Below, in pieces: positions 612 to 8,551 of a DNA stretch of 8,739 nucleotides; the stretch's first letter is position 1; each line of letters begins with the position of its first letter. A model generated the notes under the pieces. It was given only the letters and a program-made list of their open reading frames with translations, was not told where the DNA came from and did not search any database. Source of the stretch: Victivallales bacterium (lineage in GTDB: Bacteria > Verrucomicrobiota > Lentisphaeria > Oligosphaerales > Lenti-02). The DNA lies in contig JABGQJ010000302.1 of assembly GCA_018648945.1 (NCBI GenBank), positions 1 to 8,739 of the forward strand, read 5' to 3'. The translations under genes were made by a program, and so were the position numbers.

Positions 612-3600
612 TTACTCCGTTGGGTAGATCTTGGTGATGGAGGCTTGAGCACTGACCCCGGCGGGGAGGTCGAGGAGGAGACGGAGCTGATTGGGCCCGG
701 GGCGGAGATCGGGCATGGGCTGGGGCAGGTGAACGCTCTCGGCTTTGCCGGTCGTGCGGAGTTCGCAGGCGGCAGGGGTGATGCGGAGCTGTTCACCGCT
801 GCCGAGAGAGACGGGCAGGCGGATGGGGGTGCCGTTGACCTCGATGGTGGGGTTGGGGATGCGGAACGTGGTGTGCAGCACGCGCAGGTCGTCGACGACA
901 CAGGTGACCGTGGCCCCGGCGGGAATGCCGTTGTAGTAGAAGATGATGTATTCGACCTTGCTGGGATCGAGCCTGAGCTTGTCCCAGGCAAAGGAGATGT
1001 AGCGCCAGCCGGTGAAGTCTACGCGGGTGACCATGTCGTGCCACATGCCCTTGGTATCGCGCATCTGGGCCTTGAAGGACTCGCCCTTGCCGTCGCCATG
1101 GAGCCAGAAGCCCATTCCCTTCCCACCCGAGAGGTCGAGCGGCGGAGAGAACCGGCGTCCCTTGGCCCCCCAACCGCCATTGTCGGCGCGCTTGCTGGTG
1201 GCGGTGTAGCGCAAGGCCTTGCCGGTCTTGGCACGATCGGTGGCGAGGGTGAGCTCGTGGGTGACGCCGGGCTTGGCGGGGACGCCCTTGGAGTCGGCAT
1301 CGTAGGCGTACTTGGCGTAGGTGTTGACTTGGGAAAGCTGGAACAGGGCAGGGTCGTCACAGGGCTCGATGACCGTGTTCTCGGGGCGGCTGTGGAGGTC
1401 GGGGTTGCCGATGTTGTTCGATAGCTGTAGGTCGAACTCGAAGCTGGCGCTCTTCGCATTCCGGCGAACGGGCAGATCCCAGGTGGTCGCTTTGGTGCCG
1501 ATGATGGTCCGCGGTCGCCCGTGCTCGCGGCCGAGGCGGGCCCAATCCACCCGGTCGGCGGGGGCGCGTTCGCCAAAGGGCGCGCCCAGGGCCAGGAGGG
1601 TCACTTCAGCGCGAGCATTGTAGCCAGCAGTCGTCTTGGCGGTGAGTTGGAGGGTGTTCTCGCCAGCGCGGAGCTTGGGCCAGTCTGAGCCAAGAGGGAA
1701 GGTGCTGAGGACAACCCCACGGGCATCGCGGACCGTGCCTTGCTGGGTCTCATCCACTTCCAGATAGTCGCCGCTGACAGTGCAATTCGGGAGACTCACT
1801 GGTTTGCCGCCATTGACGGTGAGGGTGATATCCTCGAGCGGCACGGCCCGGATGGGCAGAGCTCGGATGGGGCTGACGAGAACTTCGACCTGCCCGCCCG
1901 TGGGGATGTTGTTCAGATAGAGATTCAGCTCGCTGACCACGTGGGTGTGGAGGCGGTTGCGGAAGATGCCGTGCTGGCTGTAGTAGGGCCATTTGTAGTC
2001 GTGGTAGCGGTCGGCCGAGCGCTCGCGGAGGGGGATCTCCACGTACTTCCAGCCGGTGAAGTCCAGATCGATGTAGTGCTCGGCGTAACTGTGGGTGTGT
2101 TCGCGCGGATTCTCGAGCTGAACGTTGAGGATTGCGCCGCTCCCGTCGCCGTGAACCCAGAGGCCGAGGGCTTCGCCTGGGCGGATACTGAGATAGGGGC
2201 GGAAGTGGGTGCCGAACTTGGCCCACGACGCATTGCGTTCGGCAGTTTTGTTGGCTGCGATGAGACGGAGCGAGTGGGGGCCTTCCTTGGTACGCTTGGT
2301 ATCCAGCGACGCAGCCAGGCTGACGCCCGCCGCTTGCCCCCGCTTGCCGAAGGTCTTGAGATCCGCGAAGTCGGTGATGGTGACGTGCTGGGGGGAGTCG
2401 TAGGGCTCGACCGCGTAGAGGGATTCCAGGCGGAGCCGGAGGGGTTGCTCGGCGTGTGGGTTCTGCATTTGCCAAGTGGCGGGCATCGAGGTGGCGCGGT
2501 GCTTCCTGGTGGCCAGGGGGCGGAACTGCCAGTTCCCGTCGGGGGTTTGGCGCAGGCGGGCTTCGCGGCCTGGCTCGCGCAGCTTCTGCCGGGTCTCGTC
2601 GGTGAAGTAGCGGGAGAGACGCAGGTTCTCATACCAGCCGAGGATCGTGAAGAACTCGCTCTGCCGAGCATTGGGCGGACGGCTGCCCACATTGACGCCC
2701 TGGATGGACATGGCGGCATCGATGCTCATGGTCTTGCCGATGAAATACTCGACCTCCTCGGGGAACATGCCTCGGCTGATGGTGGAGGGGCCGGTCAATG
2801 CCCACCAACCAAGCTGGGGTTCGAGCAGATCCCGGCGGCGGTGGTTCTCGGCAGAGGCGATGTGCATGTCGGTGAACCGCTTGGGTGCCCACTTGGGATG
2901 GTCCCAGGCACCCAGGCGCGAGTGGAACCACCAGTTGTGATGCCCCCAGCAACTGGCTTCGGTCAGAGCCGGTCGTTTGAGCCGGTTGAAGATGGCGTGG
3001 CGCATGACCGGGATGCCCCGCCAGTGGCGCATGCCTTCGGAACCGTCGAAGTAGATCTCGTCCATCTCGCAGGTGTTGAAGACCTCGGCGATGCAATCCG
3101 CCAGTTCGCCCACCAGTGTACTGTTCTGCTCGGGGTAGAAGGCGAGGTAGCGCTGCAGCAAGTGGTCGACAGCTACCCCGGCCTGGTGTGTGCCGGGACG
3201 GGTCCTGAAGGCGCCCCGGATGCACTTGCGCAGGGCGTAGGGTTTGGTCTTGGCGATCTCGGTGTAGTGGATCATTTCGCCGCCAATGCGGACCACGTTG
3301 CCGTTGCCGGCATAGCTCCAGACCACGTCGTGGTTGCCGAAGGGCTCGGTCAGGAAAATCTCGGTGTCCTTCGGACCGAGGTCCTTGGCGAGGGTGTAGG
3401 ACGCATCCGGGACGAGGCGGGGATCGGCGACGGGAGTGACCCATGGGTCATTGGTGGAGATGCAGCCGGTGAGGGTGTGGATGCCGGCCTTCAGTCCGGC
3501 ATCGTGGATGCGCTTGACCGTTTCCTTCATTCCTTCCATCCCGTTGGGGAAGGCGCTCTTGCGGGGCTTGTAGTGGCCGAGGGATGTTCCCCAACCCGAG

Positions 3601-5057
3601 TAGTGCAGATTGGTGAATCCCCCACGCCGGGCGACCTCGATCCATGCATCCACATTGGCCTCGGTAACGTGGGCGAAGAGATAGGAGCCCCGGGTCTCCT
3701 CCGCGCCCATGGCCCACGGGCCGCCCTGCTTGGATACCGGCATCTTCTCGGTCACGGCGACTTCCTGGAGAATGGGACGGAAGTCCTCGCGCCTGCTGGC
3801 GACCAACGCGATGGCGCCGTTGCCCAGGCCGTGCTCGGCGTAGGTGGTGGCGGCGAGACCTCGGCGGCCCCCCGTCAGTTGCACCTTGGTATCGAGGTTG
3901 AGCGCCCGCATGCAGATGCCATGGGTGTCGTCGGCCAGAAGCCCGGCCATGGTGCCGGCATCCTGCGTGGTCTCGGCGGCGACTTGGCCAAAGGTCAGAG
4001 AGTCGCCTTCCGGGACCTTGGTGAGCTCGATCCGGAAATGGCGTTTGCGCGGGGTGATCTTGAGCCTGACTTCCCCGCCGCCCCGGCGGAGAGTGATGGC
4101 TAGCTCATCGCCTTCCTTGCGGCAAGTGCGACCGGTCAGACGCCGGCGCTCGCGTTGCAGGGCGACGAGGGGCATGGGGGCACGGATCAGTTCGCGCCCA
4201 TCGGGCAGGGAGCGCAGGGAAGCGATGCGTCCCAGCGTGTCTACGGTCAGCTCGCTGGCTGCGGTCTTGTAGGTGGCGATGATCGGCGCGCGGTTGCGGT
4301 CCTCCGGGGCGGGTTGCCATGCTGGCGACTGCCCCTCGGGATTGCGTCCCTGCTGGGTGGCGGCGAATTCGGCCTGGATTTCCGCCGCAGTCAGGGCTTG
4401 GTTGTGCAGCTTGAGCTCGTCGATCAGCCCCTTGTGGGTGTTCTTGCCGCCCCAGGTGCCGAGGCGGATGTCGCCTTCGTGCCCAACGGGGTGGTCCCAA
4501 CGCGCGGCGCCCACCCGCTTGCCGTTCACATAGGTAACGATATTGGGTCGCTTGAGGGTGGCGGCGAGGTGGTACCAACGGCCCATGACGATCTTCCGGA
4601 CGAGTCCCGAGCTGATCTCGCGCCACCGGTCGCCTGCGCGGCTGGCACTATGGCCCGGACGTCCCATGCGGAAGCTGCAGGTGTCGTCCTTCACGAAGAT
4701 CAGGAAGCCGCCGGGGCTCCAGACGCCACCGCTGACGATGTTGGGGTATTGCCCGGTTTCTTGCCAGAGAACCCAGCAGGAAACCGTCATTTCCTCGCTG
4801 CCGTCCAATTCGGGAAGTCCGGGGATGATGACCGCCGCCCCGTTGCCGGCGAAGGCCAGGGCCTTGCCGAAGGGGCCCTGCACTTGGCTGGCACCCTGTA
4901 GCTCCGCATCGTCGCCTGTGTCAGAGCCGTCTGGCGACAGGCCACCCATGACCTCCGTGAAATCCCAGTGTCCCAGCAGACCACGCGTGGGCCGCTCGGG
5001 GGCGGCAAAGAGCGTGAAGGACGCAAAGCCGAGAGCAAGGGCGATCGCGTGACGCAT
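612..5057 (-). CDS. Secreted multidomain glycoside hydrolase-like protein (LamG, GH-D-like barrel, duplicated jelly-roll modules)
   Basis: This 1481-residue protein starts with a Sec signal (h-region AIALALGFASFTLF, residues 4-17, then AAP). Residues about 25-233 look like a LamG/concanavalin domain, with GHWDF (29-33), GRWYHLAATL (159-168) and a closing IDELKLHNQALTAAEI (212-227). Residues about 258-450 resemble the N-terminal beta-sandwich of clan D hydrolases. A TIM barrel (about 455-800) contains FPNGMEGMKETVKRIHDAGLKAG-like sequence (503-525), matching the pattern seen in GH27/GH36. It also has DEIYFDGSEG (666-675), where D671 could be the nucleophile, TEASCWGHHNWW (699-710) and DMHIASAEN (730-738). 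Two C-terminal jelly-roll plus Ig-like units follow (about 891-1158 and 1237-1478). The ATG has GGAG 8 bases upstream. Family assignment below clan level and the substrate are not recognised; YFDG also recalls the GH29 nucleophile strand. A glycan-active extracellular or periplasmic enzyme is inference from the fold pattern, and a non-catalytic carbohydrate-binding role is possible. Confidence 0.9.
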   Translation of the reverse strand: MRHAIALALGFASFTLFAAPERPTRGLLGHWDFTEVMGGLSPDGSDTGDDAELQGASQVQGPFGKALAFAGNGAAVIIPGLPELDGSEEMTVSCWVLWQETGQYPNIVSGGVWSPGGFLIFVKDDTCSFRMGRPGHSASRAGDRWREISSGLVRKIVMGRWYHLAATLKRPNIVTYVNGKRVGAARWDHPVGHEGDIRLGTWGGKNTHKGLIDELKLHNQALTAAEIQAEFAATQQGRNPEGQSPAWQPAPEDRNRAPIIATYKTAASELTVDTLGRIASLRSLPDGRELIRAPMPLVALQRERRRLTGRTCRKEGDELAITLRRGGGEVRLKITPRKRHFRIELTKVPEGDSLTFGQVAAETTQDAGTMAGLLADDTHGICMRALNLDTKVQLTGGRRGLAATTYAEHGLGNGAIALVASRREDFRPILQEVAVTEKMPVSKQGGPWAMGAEETRGSYLFAHVTEANVDAWIEVARRGGFTNLHYSGWGTSLGHYKPRKSAFPNGMEGMKETVKRIHDAGLKAGIHTLTGCISTNDPWVTPVADPRLVPDASYTLAKDLGPKDTEIFLTEPFGNHDVVWSYAGNGNVVRIGGEMIHYTEIAKTKPYALRKCIRGAFRTRPGTHQAGVAVDHLLQRYLAFYPEQNSTLVGELADCIAEVFNTCEMDEIYFDGSEGMRHWRGIPVMRHAIFNRLKRPALTEASCWGHHNWWFHSRLGAWDHPKWAPKRFTDMHIASAENHRRRDLLEPQLGWWALTGPSTISRGMFPEEVEYFIGKTMSIDAAMSIQGVNVGSRPPNARQSEFFTILGWYENLRLSRYFTDETRQKLREPGREARLRQTPDGNWQFRPLATRKHRATSMPATWQMQNPHAEQPLRLRLESLYAVEPYDSPQHVTITDFADLKTFGKRGQAAGVSLAASLDTKRTKEGPHSLRLIAANKTAERNASWAKFGTHFRPYLSIRPGEALGLWVHGDGSGAILNVQLENPREHTHSYAEHYIDLDFTGWKYVEIPLRERSADRYHDYKWPYYSQHGIFRNRLHTHVVSELNLYLNNIPTGGQVEVLVSPIRALPIRAVPLEDITLTVNGGKPVSLPNCTVSGDYLEVDETQQGTVRDARGVVLSTFPLGSDWPKLRAGENTLQLTAKTTAGYNARAEVTLLALGAPFGERAPADRVDWARLGREHGRPRTIIGTKATTWDLPVRRNAKSASFEFDLQLSNNIGNPDLHSRPENTVIEPCDDPALFQLSQVNTYAKYAYDADSKGVPAKPGVTHELTLATDRAKTGKALRYTATSKRADNGGWGAKGRRFSPPLDLSGGKGMGFWLHGDGKGESFKAQMRDTKGMWHDMVTRVDFTGWRYISFAWDKLRLDPSKVEYIIFYYNGIPAGATVTCVVDDLRVLHTTFRIPNPTIEVNGTPIRLPVSLGSGEQLRITPAACELRTTGKAESVHLPQPMPDLRPGPNQLRLLLDLPAGVSAQASITKIYPTE
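615..618 (-). promoter_or_regulatory. Ribosome-binding site deciding the GTG start of the propeller gene
   Basis: On the minus strand GGAG sits in the last sense codons of the large upstream gene (ACG GAG TAA), 6 bases before GTG at 608-606. The stop codon lies between the two. Position and spacing suggest translational coupling and favour GTG 608 over ATG 566, which is preceded by GACTGTTTGCC with no purine-rich stretch. Confidence 0.7.
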
Positions 5058-5238: not shown

Positions 5239-5274
5239 CAGTGCTCCCTCTGGCCATCCCGATGTTCCCGCCCT

Positions 5275-5326
5275 CCCAGTATTCCAGTATCCCAGCATCC
5301 CAGTATTCCAGCATTCCAGTATTCCA
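5275..5326 (-). repeat. Right octamer array (6.5 units of 8 bp), inverted relative to the left array
   Basis: On the plus strand the units are CCCAGTAT, TCCAGTAT, CCCAGCAT, CCCAGTAT, TCCAGCAT, TCCAGTAT and a final TCCA, consensus YCCAGYAT. Read on the minus strand they become CTGGAATA/CTGGAATG-like, matching the TTGGAATG units of the left array. As RNA, 5212-5238 can pair with 5300-5326 through three TGGAAT/ATTCCA blocks with G-U pairs between them. Several sliding registers are possible. The array ends 12 bases before the activase start codon. Confidence 0.85.
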
Positions 5327-5338
5327 CGGACTCATCCC

Positions 5339-6247
5339 ATGACCGGTATGATCTTCGATATCCAGAAGTTCTCGATCCACGACGGACCGGGAATCCGCAC
5401 GACCGTGTTCCTGAAGGGTTGCCCCCTGCGCTGTCGCTGGTGCCACAACCCCGAGTCGAACACACTCAAACCCCAGCTCTCCTTCATGCCCGAGCGGTGC
5501 ATCGGCTGCGGCTTCTGTTTCGAGCGCTGCCCGAATGAGGCCCATCGGATGACCGACGACGGGCATCTGCTGGACCGGGACAAGTGCGTGGAATGCGGTT
5601 CCTGCACGGAGAAGTGCTACGCCGAGGCCCTGGAGGTGATCGGCCGCGAGGAGACCGTCGAGGAAGTCTTGGCCGAAGTGCTCAAGGACAAACCCTTCTA
5701 TGAGACCTCGAAGGGCGGCATGACCCTCTCCGGCGGCGAACCGCTGATGCAGATCGATTTCAGCGAGGCCCTGCTCCGGCGTGCCAAGGAGGAGGAACTG
5801 CACTGCGCCGTCGAAACTTCTGGGTATGGCCCGTTCGAGCGCATCGAGCGGCTCCTGCCCTTCGTGGATCTCTGGCTCTATGACATCAAATCAGTGGACG
5901 ATGCGCAGCACCGCGACCTCACTGGGGTCTCGAACGAGACCATTCTGGCCAACGTGCGGGCTTTGCACGATCGGGGGGTGGAACTGCTCTTGCGGTTGCC
6001 CATGGTGCCTGGATACAACGCCAGCGAGGCGGATTTTCTGGCGTTGGCTGCGTTGGCCAACGAACTGCCCAATTGCCAAGGCGTGGAGATCATGCCGTAC
6101 CATCGCCTGGGCGAAGGCAAGCTGGAACGGCTCGGGGCTGATGGAACCTACCGGGCCGTGGCCGAGTCTCCCGAAGCGGAGACGGTGAACGGCTGGATCG
6201 ACCGGCTCACGGAGTTGGGTGCGAAGGTCATCAACGAGCGCAAATAG
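5339..6247 (+). CDS. Glycyl radical enzyme activating enzyme (radical SAM)
   Basis: This 302-residue protein uses S-adenosylmethionine and a 4Fe-4S cluster to make the 5'-deoxyadenosyl radical that abstracts hydrogen from the glycine of a partner enzyme. It opens with the family's signature IHDGPGIRTTVFLKGCPLRC (13-32). The radical SAM cluster is C28-x3-C32-x2-C35. Two ferredoxin-like 4Fe-4S motifs follow, C54/C57/C60/C64 and C83/C86/C89/C93, as in activases of glycerol dehydratase, choline lyase and hydroxyproline dehydratase; the classic pyruvate formate-lyase activase lacks them. GGMTLSGGEP (126-135) is the SAM-binding GGE region. Length is normal for the subfamily. Start: ATG 5339, with a weak GGA 8 bases upstream; ATG 5348 (M4) is an alternative that removes only three residues. 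Upstream in-frame starts would run through the octamer repeats and are unlikely. Its partner follows 20 bp downstream. Confidence in the function is high; specificity depends on the partner. Confidence 0.95.
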   Translation: MTGMIFDIQKFSIHDGPGIRTTVFLKGCPLRCRWCHNPESNTLKPQLSFMPERCIGCGFCFERCPNEAHRMTDDGHLLDRDKCVECGSCTEKCYAEALEVIGREETVEEVLAEVLKDKPFYETSKGGMTLSGGEPLMQIDFSEALLRRAKEEELHCAVETSGYGPFERIERLLPFVDLWLYDIKSVDDAQHRDLTGVSNETILANVRALHDRGVELLLRLPMVPGYNASEADFLALAALANELPNCQGVEIMPYHRLGEGKLERLGADGTYRAVAESPEAETVNGWIDRLTELGAKVINERK

Positions 6248-6267: not shown

Positions 6268-8391
6268 ATGGCGGTCACTGGAACCACTCGCCAGGATCAA
6301 TGGGCCGAACGGATCAAGACTCTGCGGGACCGTTGCCTGGTGCGCAAGCCGCAAGGCGCTCCCGACCGGTCCGTGCCCACTGCGCGCGGCCTGCGCGCCA
6401 GCGAAGGGGAATCCTGGCAGGTGCGGCGCGGCTATGCGGTGCGCGAAACGCTCCGGGCCCTTCGCTTTGAACTGGATGAACAGGAGCTGCTGATCGGGCG
6501 CATGGCCCGGCTGAGCTGGTCCGAAGACGAGCACCGGGAAGCCCGCGAGTACCTCGCGACCTTCACCGCGCCAACTGGCCAGACGGGGCACTGCGAGCTG
6601 GCCCGCTCCCGACTTTTCGCCGGCGGCGTGGCGGGCATGTGCGCCGATATCGGGGCTCGTCTGGGCAAGGCCAGCGGCGAACAGGCGGATGCGTATCGCT
6701 CGTTCCTGCTGGCTCTCGAAGGCTTCGCGGCCATGATCGGGCAAGCCGCCGAGACTGCGGAACAGGCCATCCCCGACGCAACCGCAGAGCGCCAGCTGGA
6801 ACTGCGCACCATCGCCGACTCCTGCCGCCGTCTGCAGACCGATCCCCCCCAGAGCTTCCGCGATGCCATTCAGCTCTCCTGGCTCATGGACATGGCCGCG
6901 ATGCTTGGTGACAGCATCGGGCTCGTCGTCTCCGGCCATCTGGACCGGACCTTGCTGCCCTTCTACGAGCGCGATGTGGCGGCCGGTCGTCTGGACGAAG
7001 GCGAGGCCCTGGCCCTGATTGAGGCGCTCTATATCCTGATCAACGAGCTGATTCCCGATGGCTTGGCCATGTCGGTGATGGTGGGTGGTCGCGATGCCGC
7101 CGGTCGCGATGTGACCAATCCCCTGTCCTATCTCTGCCTGGAAGCCCTGCGCCGGACCGGTTTGGTCTACCCCACGGTGGGGGTCTGTTGGCACGAAGGC
7201 ACGCCTGCCGATCTGCCCCGCTTGGCCTCCGAGATCGTGGCCGACGGCTGCGCCAACCCCGCCTTCTTCGGCGACGAGACCATTCAGCGTGGCCTCCGTT
7301 CCTATGGGGTTCCCACTGAGCAGTCCTGCAACTACATCAACTCCACCTGCGTGGAGATCACCCCGGTCGGCAGCAGCAATGTCTGGGTGGCCAGCCCCTA
7401 CTTCAGCACCTGCGGCATCCTCTGCGAGGAGTTGACGGCGCAAGCGGCGAGCGAATGCCCTGCCGCCGATTTCGACACTTTTCTCGCTGCCTACCGGGAC
7501 CGCCTCGGTACCCGCATCGCCGCCGCCGCCCAGCATCAGGCCAAACAGCGCCAGGGCCGGCGCACGCACGGCCGTAAACCCATGCAGAGCGTTTTCACCA
7601 AGGACTGCATTGGGCGCGGGCGTGACATTGACGATGGCGGCGCGCTGTACAACTGGGTGGAATGCTCCTTCGTGGGGCTGGCCAACTTGGTGGACTCCCT
7701 CTGGGTGGTCCGCGAGGAGATCTATGGTCAGGAACTGCTCGGTTTCCCCGAGTTGCTGCGCGTTCTGGCTGGGGACTTCGCGGGCGAGGAGTCCGTGCGG
7801 CGGCGCTTCCTGAGCTACCCCAAATACGGGAACGCCATTGCCGAGATCGATGGCCTGTTCGACGGGATCGTCGGTTTCGTTCGCGGCGAATGCGAGCGTC
7901 ACCCCATGCCCCCGGACCAGACCCATTATGTGCCTGGGGCGTTCTGTTGGGTGATGCATGAGCGTCTGGGCGGCGAATGCGGGGCCACGCCCGACGGTCG
8001 CCGTGCTGGGACGCCCTTCGCCGATGGCTGCGGCCCGGCCCAGGGCCGCGAAACCTGCGGCCCCACCGCCGCCGTGCTCTCGACCACATCGTGGGACCAC
8101 GCCCCGCTGATCGGTGGCAGCGCCTTCAATATGAAGTTCCCCAAGTCCCTGTTCAGTGACCAGAGCGGCCGGGACCGCCTGTGTGAGCTGGTCCTGACCT
8201 TCCTCCGTCGCGGTGGGTTTGAGACCCAGATCAACGTGGTCGATGCCGATATCCTGCTCGCCGCCCGCGAGAACCCCGAGGATCACCGCGATCTGGTCGT
8301 GCGCATTGGCGGCTACACCGACTACTTCGTCCGCCTGGCCCCCGGCATGCAGGACGAAGTCATCCGCCGCACGCAGTACGACGAAGTCTAG
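6268..8391 (+). CDS. Glycyl radical enzyme (pyruvate formate-lyase-like superfamily), substrate unknown
   Basis: This cytoplasmic, oxygen-sensitive enzyme of 707 residues belongs to the PFL-like superfamily. The C-terminal radical motif is VRIGGYTDYF (678-687), with G682 as the likely radical glycine. The thiyl-radical cysteine is C361 in NSTCVEITPVG; E363 two residues on matches the Cys-x-Glu pair used by dehydratases and C-N, C-S and C-O lyases (glycerol and propanediol dehydratase, CutC, IslA, HypD). PFL itself has Cys-Cys, so formate lyase is unlikely. Other family signatures are DRTLLPFYERD (226-236), the N-terminal ELLIGR (73-78) and TPDGRRAGTPFADG (574-587). Odd points: STCVE instead of the usual GCVE, AFFGDETIQ (332-340) where relatives carry a PALYND-like segment, and a length below the roughly 760-850 residues of characterised members. 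Y378 lies 17 residues after the Cys, the same offset I recall for CutC Y506; without an alignment this is only a hint. The gene is cotranscribed with its activase. Superfamily certain, reaction unassigned. Confidence 0.95.
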   Translation: MAVTGTTRQDQWAERIKTLRDRCLVRKPQGAPDRSVPTARGLRASEGESWQVRRGYAVRETLRALRFELDEQELLIGRMARLSWSEDEHREAREYLATFTAPTGQTGHCELARSRLFAGGVAGMCADIGARLGKASGEQADAYRSFLLALEGFAAMIGQAAETAEQAIPDATAERQLELRTIADSCRRLQTDPPQSFRDAIQLSWLMDMAAMLGDSIGLVVSGHLDRTLLPFYERDVAAGRLDEGEALALIEALYILINELIPDGLAMSVMVGGRDAAGRDVTNPLSYLCLEALRRTGLVYPTVGVCWHEGTPADLPRLASEIVADGCANPAFFGDETIQRGLRSYGVPTEQSCNYINSTCVEITPVGSSNVWVASPYFSTCGILCEELTAQAASECPAADFDTFLAAYRDRLGTRIAAAAQHQAKQRQGRRTHGRKPMQSVFTKDCIGRGRDIDDGGALYNWVECSFVGLANLVDSLWVVREEIYGQELLGFPELLRVLAGDFAGEESVRRRFLSYPKYGNAIAEIDGLFDGIVGFVRGECERHPMPPDQTHYVPGAFCWVMHERLGGECGATPDGRRAGTPFADGCGPAQGRETCGPTAAVLSTTSWDHAPLIGGSAFNMKFPKSLFSDQSGRDRLCELVLTFLRRGGFETQINVVDADILLAARENPEDHRDLVVRIGGYTDYFVRLAPGMQDEVIRRTQYDEV

Positions 8392-8392
8392 A

Positions 8393-8502
8393 GTAGAAGC
8401 GGCGTCTCGCCGCTTGTCTTGCTGCTCTTCACCGAAAAAGGCGCTGTTGGCAGCCGCAGGGCGTGGGATGTGGGGGGACAAGCGGCGAGACGCCGCTTCC
8501 AC
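8393..8502. repeat. Inverted repeat with 26-bp arms, each arm a hairpin
   Basis: The arms are 8393-8418 and 8477-8502. They are reverse complements at 25 of 26 positions (the mismatch pairs 8395 with 8500) and enclose 58 bases. Each arm contains the self-complementary core AAGCGGCGTCTCGCCGCTT or its reverse complement (8397-8415 and 8480-8498): an 8-bp stem with a 3-base loop. The left arm begins 1 base after the TAG of the radical enzyme gene. No T-run follows, so a standard intrinsic terminator is not clear, although the structure could block read-through or protect the mRNA end. No target-site duplication or coding capacity is visible. A dispersed REP-like or MITE-like element is the likeliest identity. 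Confidence 0.85.
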
Positions 8503-8551
8503 GCTCGTCTGTTGGCGTGCCTCGCTCCCTCCCCGCCCTTCCCAGAGAACC

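Follow-up and report, generated by a model that had tools for sequence, protein, structure and literature searches.

Described glycyl radical enzymes and the enzyme encoded in the window

Glycyl radical enzymes (GREs) are oxygen-sensitive and carry out reactions that are among the most demanding of anaerobic metabolism, and new subfamilies of these enzymes have revealed new metabolic steps. The best sequence match in the PDB to the enzyme considered here is glycerol dehydratase (274 bits). Its residues His281, Ser282, Tyr339 and Asp447 are taken by us to be the diol-binding residues, and those of 1,2-propanediol dehydratase are presumed to be equivalent. PflD and YbiW, which were solved with 1,5-anhydrohexitol-6-phosphates (PDB 8id0, 8id7 and also 8yjo), are reportedly the subject of work on radical-mediated glycolysis that appeared in JACS in 2024. 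According to the respective papers, the Cys-x-Glu pair of the Cys loop is conserved among GRE eliminases (PMC7077986), Asp278, Ser334 and Asp339 are essential in HypD, where His160 tunes the Cys-loop glutamate (HypD paper), and the sulfonate site of IslA/IseG is composed of Arg187, Gln191 and Arg676 (PMC6453916).

The stretch of DNA analyzed in this study, an 8,739-nucleotide contig of a Victivallales bacterium referred to here as the window, contains on the forward strand an open reading frame at positions 6268..8391 that begins with ATG and encodes 707 residues. The deduced protein scores 286 bits with the Pfam domain PFL-like and 70 bits with Gly_radical, and it possesses the finger-loop cysteine and the radical glycine of the GRE superfamily. 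The Cys loop from Ile357 to Tyr378 (INSTCVEITPVGSSNVWVASPY; 7336..7401, forward strand) includes C361 and E363 and thus the Cys-x-Glu pair of the eliminase branch, while the Gly loop RIGGY (residues 679-683; 8302..8316, forward strand) includes G682, the radical glycine according to the alignment. Judged by these sequence features, the reading frame is a real and intact GRE gene with C361, E363, H108 and the RIGGY loop. A preliminary description of the locus had given the same length and the same positions for C361-V-E363, Y378 and RIGGY; its proposal of a CxE catalytic core is borne out by C361 and E363 in all 120 listed homologues (55-93% identity). The segment AFFGDETIQ, by contrast, had been regarded as unusual, but it is a general GRE motif that corresponds in the alignment to the A-Y-Y-N-D-E stretch of glycerol dehydratase, with G in the place of N, and FFND occurs in 13 of the 120 relatives.

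The comparison with structurally characterized GREs showed identities of 19-27% in the 50 fold-search matches listed. The B12-independent dehydratases of glycerol (PDB 1r8w) and 1,2-propanediol (5i2g) share the common GRE fold with the window enzyme (Foldseek TM 0.86 and 0.85), and the CxE Cys loop and the Gly loop are common to glycerol dehydratase and the window GRE in the alignment, whereas the identity amounts to 24-26% and the two dehydratases are longer (787 and 843 residues). Mapping of the pocket by sequence alignment revealed that all four glycerol dehydratase residues named above are replaced (H281 by G218, S282 by L219, Y339 by A267 and D447 by A375), and the loop that carries Phe333 in glycerol dehydratase and Ser334 in HypD is about 13 residues shorter. 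PflD and YbiW are also among the nearest folds, with PflD tying with glycerol dehydratase, but they are 22-27% identical to the window GRE and fall on separate branches of the tree described below.

The trans-4-hydroxy-L-proline dehydratase HypD (PDB 6vxc) shares with the window enzyme the CxE pair, a tyrosine (Tyr450, corresponding to Y378) and the equivalent histidine, since H108 aligns with the histidine of the GH motif in two HypD sequences, which was taken as His160. The positions of Asp278 and Asp339 are not conserved in the window enzyme and the Ser334 loop is shortened, as deduced from the motif position in two HypD loci. The choline TMA-lyase CutC resembles the window enzyme in its fold, the CxE pair and the tyrosine at position 378; with the CutC numbering that we presume, Tyr506 aligns with Y378 and Thr502 with V374. 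The residue E465 of the window GRE corresponds to Gly, Ser or Tyr in the references other than pyruvate formate-lyase, and on the basis of the alignment E465 and W561 set the family of the window enzyme apart from the references. A pocket lined by E465, W561, E363 and Y378 would suit a neutral hydroxylated ligand.

A profile scan showed that the window GRE reaches none of the NCBIfam equivalog cut-offs. The scores were 243 bits for the HypD model NF043068 (cut-off 1100), 233 bits for the CutC model TIGR04394 (1050), 254 and 234 bits for the sulfopropanediol dehydratase (HpsG/HpfG) models NF048011 and NF048009 (1000 each) and 289 bits for NF007437 (PRK09983; 1109), which we take to be the PflD model. 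Pyruvate formate-lyase was likewise rejected, with 58 bits for TIGR01255 (cut-off 994) and a T-C in the window enzyme at the place of the C-C of PflB.

Conservation, phylogeny and distribution of the NST family

A search for homologous proteins yielded at least 909 matches at E values up to 1e-3, which may include other GREs, and the 120 closest were listed. The motif NSTCVE, after which the family is named NST here, is present in 118 of these 120 proteins. C361, V362 and E363 as well as I364, V374, A375, S376 and Y378 are found in all 121 sequences (the 120 listed homologues and the window enzyme), and H108, where the alignment has no gap at that site, in 120 of 120 protein rows and 72 of 72 locus rows. 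A genome scan with the patterns NSTCVEIT and ECSFVG[LM]A detected 90 stretches, of which 75 were confirmed as loci with an NST GRE and 15 were dropped. C361 and E363 occur in 75 of these 75 loci; because the loci were picked by motif patterns, motif conservation has to be judged from the protein homologues and from five loci that were found later by protein search, one of which (L131) has NSAC in place of NSTC. A search of the PDB with the 39-residue Cys-loop region detected no GRE at E values up to 10.

In a tree of 57 rows, the 24 NST rows constitute one branch (SH-aLRT 100) apart from the eight reference rows, namely PflB, YbiW, PflD, glycerol dehydratase, HypD (two rows) and CutC (two rows). 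Along with other short GREs of the same bacteria they belong to a group of 48 rows with a support of 99. The tree was calculated by a quick method from a set without HpsG, IslA, HPAD, BSS and propanediol dehydratase, and it includes three very long branches and 14 rows of odd composition. The STCVE loop is, at the sequence level, the mark of a GRE family. The absence of an equivalog match, the low identity to the solved GREs listed, the loop without a counterpart among GREs of the PDB and the separate branch together support the view of the preliminary description that this family is an uncharacterized subfamily of CxE-type GREs; the clustering with a characterized subfamily of the same loop that would speak against it was not seen among the eight references. 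Among the matches listed in a search of the open-licence PMC literature, no description of the NST subfamily, of a clade of short GREs or of the GREs of the phyla concerned was found.

NST GREs occur in anaerobic bacteria of environmental origin. Thirty of the 75 loci are labelled Lentisphaerae, Lentisphaeria, Victivallales, Victivallis, Victivallaceae or Oligosphaera, and the remainder covers, among other groups, Armatimonadetes, Latescibacterota, Planctomycetota, Hydrogenedentota, Chloroflexi/Anaerolineae, Kiritimatiellae and a few Clostridia. Of the genome loci, L001 from the Victivallales MAG SZUA-436 is most similar to the window enzyme (79% identity), and the named strain among the loci is Oligosphaera ethanolica DSM 24202 (L017; 58% identity). 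In the class of the genome that carries locus L016, a match at an E value of 1e-120 or better was detected in 36 of 197 genomes, with one copy each, which is a lower bound as at most five candidates were scored per genome. The subfamily thus comprises at least 120 members at 55% identity or more and 75 genome loci, with operon clues to sugars near some of them; since a member is also encoded in O. ethanolica DSM 24202, the question of the substrate is directly testable. As a side observation, the NST GRE at L043:269-2463 is distributed over two frames (242 and 534 residues) and represents a broken or mis-sequenced copy.

Gene neighbourhoods and the proposed reaction

The GRE gene of the window is preceded, at a distance of 20 bp, by a gene for a radical-SAM activase of the TIGR02494 family (5339..6247, forward strand; 356 bits with a cut-off of 174). 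The ATG at 5339 is a chosen start within a longest open reading frame from 5144, and the cysteine motifs read from the sequence are CX3CX2C and two ferredoxin-type sets, which correspond to two 4Fe-4S sites. The activase had been described as the sole neighbour of note. This does not hold, as the divergently oriented gene at 612..5057 (reverse strand), which encodes a protein of 1481 residues (LamG_3 and CBM_11 domains, glycoside-hydrolase-like core), also has a homologue beside the activase and GRE genes of L001, on the same side and separated by one open reading frame of 297 residues. Moreover, the longest contig given for a 75% homologue of this protein has the same length, 60147, as that given for an 83% homologue of the GRE, which suggests that the two may be linked, and we infer a functional link between the 1481-residue protein and the GRE. 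The core yielded no match among PDB sequences up to an E value of 0.1, and its structural model resembles GH101, GH129 and GH31 enzymes weakly (TM about 0.4, rmsd about 10 A, mean pLDDT 68). At least 338 matches to the protein were obtained, the named ones being mostly MAGs of planctomycete, verrucomicrobia and lentisphaeria type.

Two repeats were observed in the window, an array of an 8-bp unit resembling YYCCAGYA at 5266-5329, in the gap that separates the divergent gene from the activase gene, and a REP/MITE-like inverted repeat at 8385-8510, which begins at the 3' end of the GRE gene and has 34-nt arms that are 88% complementary and 58 nt apart. Exact patterns of the array and of the core palindrome of the inverted repeat gave no matches in 130 loci, and Rfam gave none across the window at gathering scores.

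The neighbourhoods of the relatives were deduced from homology-weighted open reading frames rather than gene-finder calls. Pfam scans were applied to selected proteins, and 126 of the 137 proximal genes were tallied, the 11 longest being dropped. Close relatives often consist of GRE and activase genes or of the GRE gene alone, and many loci, including the window, are of this kind or have mixed neighbours. Among the three window proteins scanned, no shell protein, aldehyde dehydrogenase or transporter was identified, in agreement with the preliminary description; sugar genes near some relatives do provide clues to the substrate. In L020 the order is a metallophosphoesterase-cluster gene, a rhamnulokinase-like gene (481 of 528 bits), Ldh_2, the GRE and an L-rhamnose isomerase above its cut-off, and the same gene clusters recur in L016. 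In L026, genes for an iron alcohol dehydrogenase (Fe-ADH), a class II aldolase, a protein with weak similarity to phosphatases (75 of 400 bits), DeoC (above its cut-off), an FGGY kinase and an IclR regulator precede the NST GRE and a second GRE; four of these clusters recur in L037, including DeoC, class II aldolase and FGGY kinase homologues. In L003, a relative of 64% identity, a class II aldolase gene adjoins the activase gene, the only TIGR02494 match at 1e-40 in that genome; some 1.4 kb, including a GH16 gene, separate this activase gene from the NST GRE. In L047, genes for an FAA hydrolase and an aldehyde dehydrogenase precede the GRE.

In the 75 loci, one representative query each detected nine Fe-ADH and eleven IclR homologues, and all of these share the strand of the GRE gene, at distances of up to 5.3 kb and 2.6 kb, respectively; since eight of the nine loci with an Fe-ADH belong to Lentisphaeria-type MAGs, they are not independent. 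The commonest Pfam families among the 126 proximal genes are IclR (9), URO-D (9) and Fe-ADH (6). Two of the five later loci repeat the set of IclR, GRE and Fe-ADH, with the orders IclR, NST-GRE, two more GREs, Fe-ADH and activase frame in L138 and IclR, GRE, activase and Fe-ADH in L139. L131 contains another GRE, IclR, the GRE with NSAC and an activase, L144 has a second GRE, and L145 shows neither the gene set nor a second GRE.

These data point to the window GRE as an anaerobic 1,2-eliminase (dehydratase) that acts on a polyhydroxylated compound, most probably a sugar, a sugar alcohol or a close derivative, an assignment that we regard as evenly balanced between right and wrong, and the NST family may hold several substrates. 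As in characterized eliminases, the activase and SAM would generate the radical at G682, from where it would pass to C361; the C361 thiyl radical would then abstract a hydrogen atom from a hydroxyl-bearing carbon, E363, tuned by H108, would deprotonate that hydroxyl, water would leave the neighbouring carbon, and C361 would return the hydrogen, with a deoxy aldehyde or ketone as the product. Following the operons of some relatives, an FGGY kinase could phosphorylate the deoxy product, an aldolase (DeoC or class II) could split it and an Fe-ADH could reduce the short aldehyde.

The sugar or polyol reading, derived from the operons of some relatives, has about an even chance of being correct. 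It is consistent with the complete set of Cys-x-Glu, histidine and Gly loop next to an activase gene, with the rhamnose genes of L020 and L016, the DeoC, aldolase and kinase genes of L026 and L037 and the aldolase gene of L003, with Fe-ADH and IclR genes on the GRE strand, and with the occurrence of the ligand-bound PflD and YbiW structures among the closest folds. Against it, the sugar-gene contexts are few (DeoC in two, RhaA in two and class II aldolase in three of 75 loci) and belong to relatives of 52-64% identity, and URO-D, as common as IclR with 9 of 126 genes, is not explained by the model. In the similarity network of one paper, about 60% identity separates GREs of distinct chemistry, so that the operon clues of the relatives at 52-56% may not transfer to the window GRE. 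These clues are best connected to the window enzyme through L003 with its 64% identity.

The rhamnose genes of L016 and L020, the Fe-ADH genes elsewhere and the best PDB match would also accord with a divergent 1,2-propanediol or glycerol dehydratase that acts on the diol from deoxysugar fermentation (lactaldehyde to propanediol to propanal). This appears unlikely in view of the four replaced substrate residues, whose roles are presumed, and the shortened Phe333 loop; in addition, the two Fe-ADH proteins scanned score 199 and 221 of 523 bits with a lactaldehyde reductase model, and no family of microcompartment shell proteins is seen among the neighbours scanned or among the 25 of 113 families listed in the tally. 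A PflD/YbiW-like lyase that opens the ring of an anhydro sugar or anhydroalditol supplied by the breakdown of algal or plant polysaccharides is quite improbable, given the low score with the presumed PflD model and the weak fold match of the 1481-residue protein, even though PflD and YbiW are among the nearest folds, the GH101/GH129 matches of that protein include a 3,6-anhydro-D-galactosidase and a GH16 gene is present in L003. Sulfatase genes near L027 and L029, the CxE core that CutC and IslA have in common with the window enzyme according to the literature, and the alignment of Y378 with the CutC tyrosine would fit a C-N or C-S eliminase of an amino or sulfonated compound. The valine at the position of the presumed Thr502 of CutC, the scores far from the CutC and HpsG cut-offs and the scattered occurrence of nitrogen-related neighbours (amidase, amidohydrolase, creatininase) make this very improbable.

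Surplus of GRE genes over activase genes

In 12 of the 75 loci, the strand of the NST GRE carries another GRE gene or piece of one at a distance of at most 6 kb; this count omits L043 with its one gene in two frames. In L046:2077-14144, five different GREs, one Fe-ADH and one activase are encoded in a single run, and two of the five GREs lack the Cys-loop glutamate (CMG and CNR). Matches to PF02901, some of which are fragments, number 12 in Oligosphaera and 3-20 in 16 other genomes. GRE frames of at least 600 residues outnumber activase-like genes by 17 to about 5 (one partial) in the genome of L001, 17 to about 2 in that of L003, 15 to about 4 in that of L016, 16 to about 4 in that of L020 and 12 to about 6 in Oligosphaera; less extreme ratios were obtained for L013 (7 to 2), L035 (4 to 1) and L046 (7 to 4). 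These numbers come mostly from MAGs, which may be incomplete or contaminated, and the activase counts represent the union of TIGR02494 (E value 1e-40) and PFLA (1e-15) matches without those of 61-69 bits, so that weaker TIGR02494-type activases were counted only if the PFLA model caught them. As there are more GREs than activases, the sharing of activases is testable.

The Cys loops of the paralogues include CTE, CYE, CWE, CWD and CIE as well as CNR, CNW, CHW and CMG without Glu or Asp, and each of these paralogues has a recognizable Gly loop; an antisense frame (L078) was disregarded in this comparison. It is conceivable, albeit rather unlikely, that Lentisphaeria and related anaerobes harbour a radiation of short GREs (about 620-750 residues) to which the NST enzymes belong as one arm. 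The two to five different GREs of an operon would then have a single activase, Fe-ADH and IclR regulator in common and would remove oxygen from sugars and polyols stepwise or one stereoisomer after another, which would provide a fermentative sink for electrons; members whose Cys loop lacks Glu may perform new radical chemistry. In L007 and L009, a GRE with a GCNW loop and its own activase are encoded on the strand opposite to the NST GRE, with URO-D paralogues around them. The twelve GREs of Oligosphaera ethanolica (L076-L087) display, for example, the Cys loops CYE, CWE, CWD and CHW and the Gly loops RVCGW, RVWGW and RMCGF.
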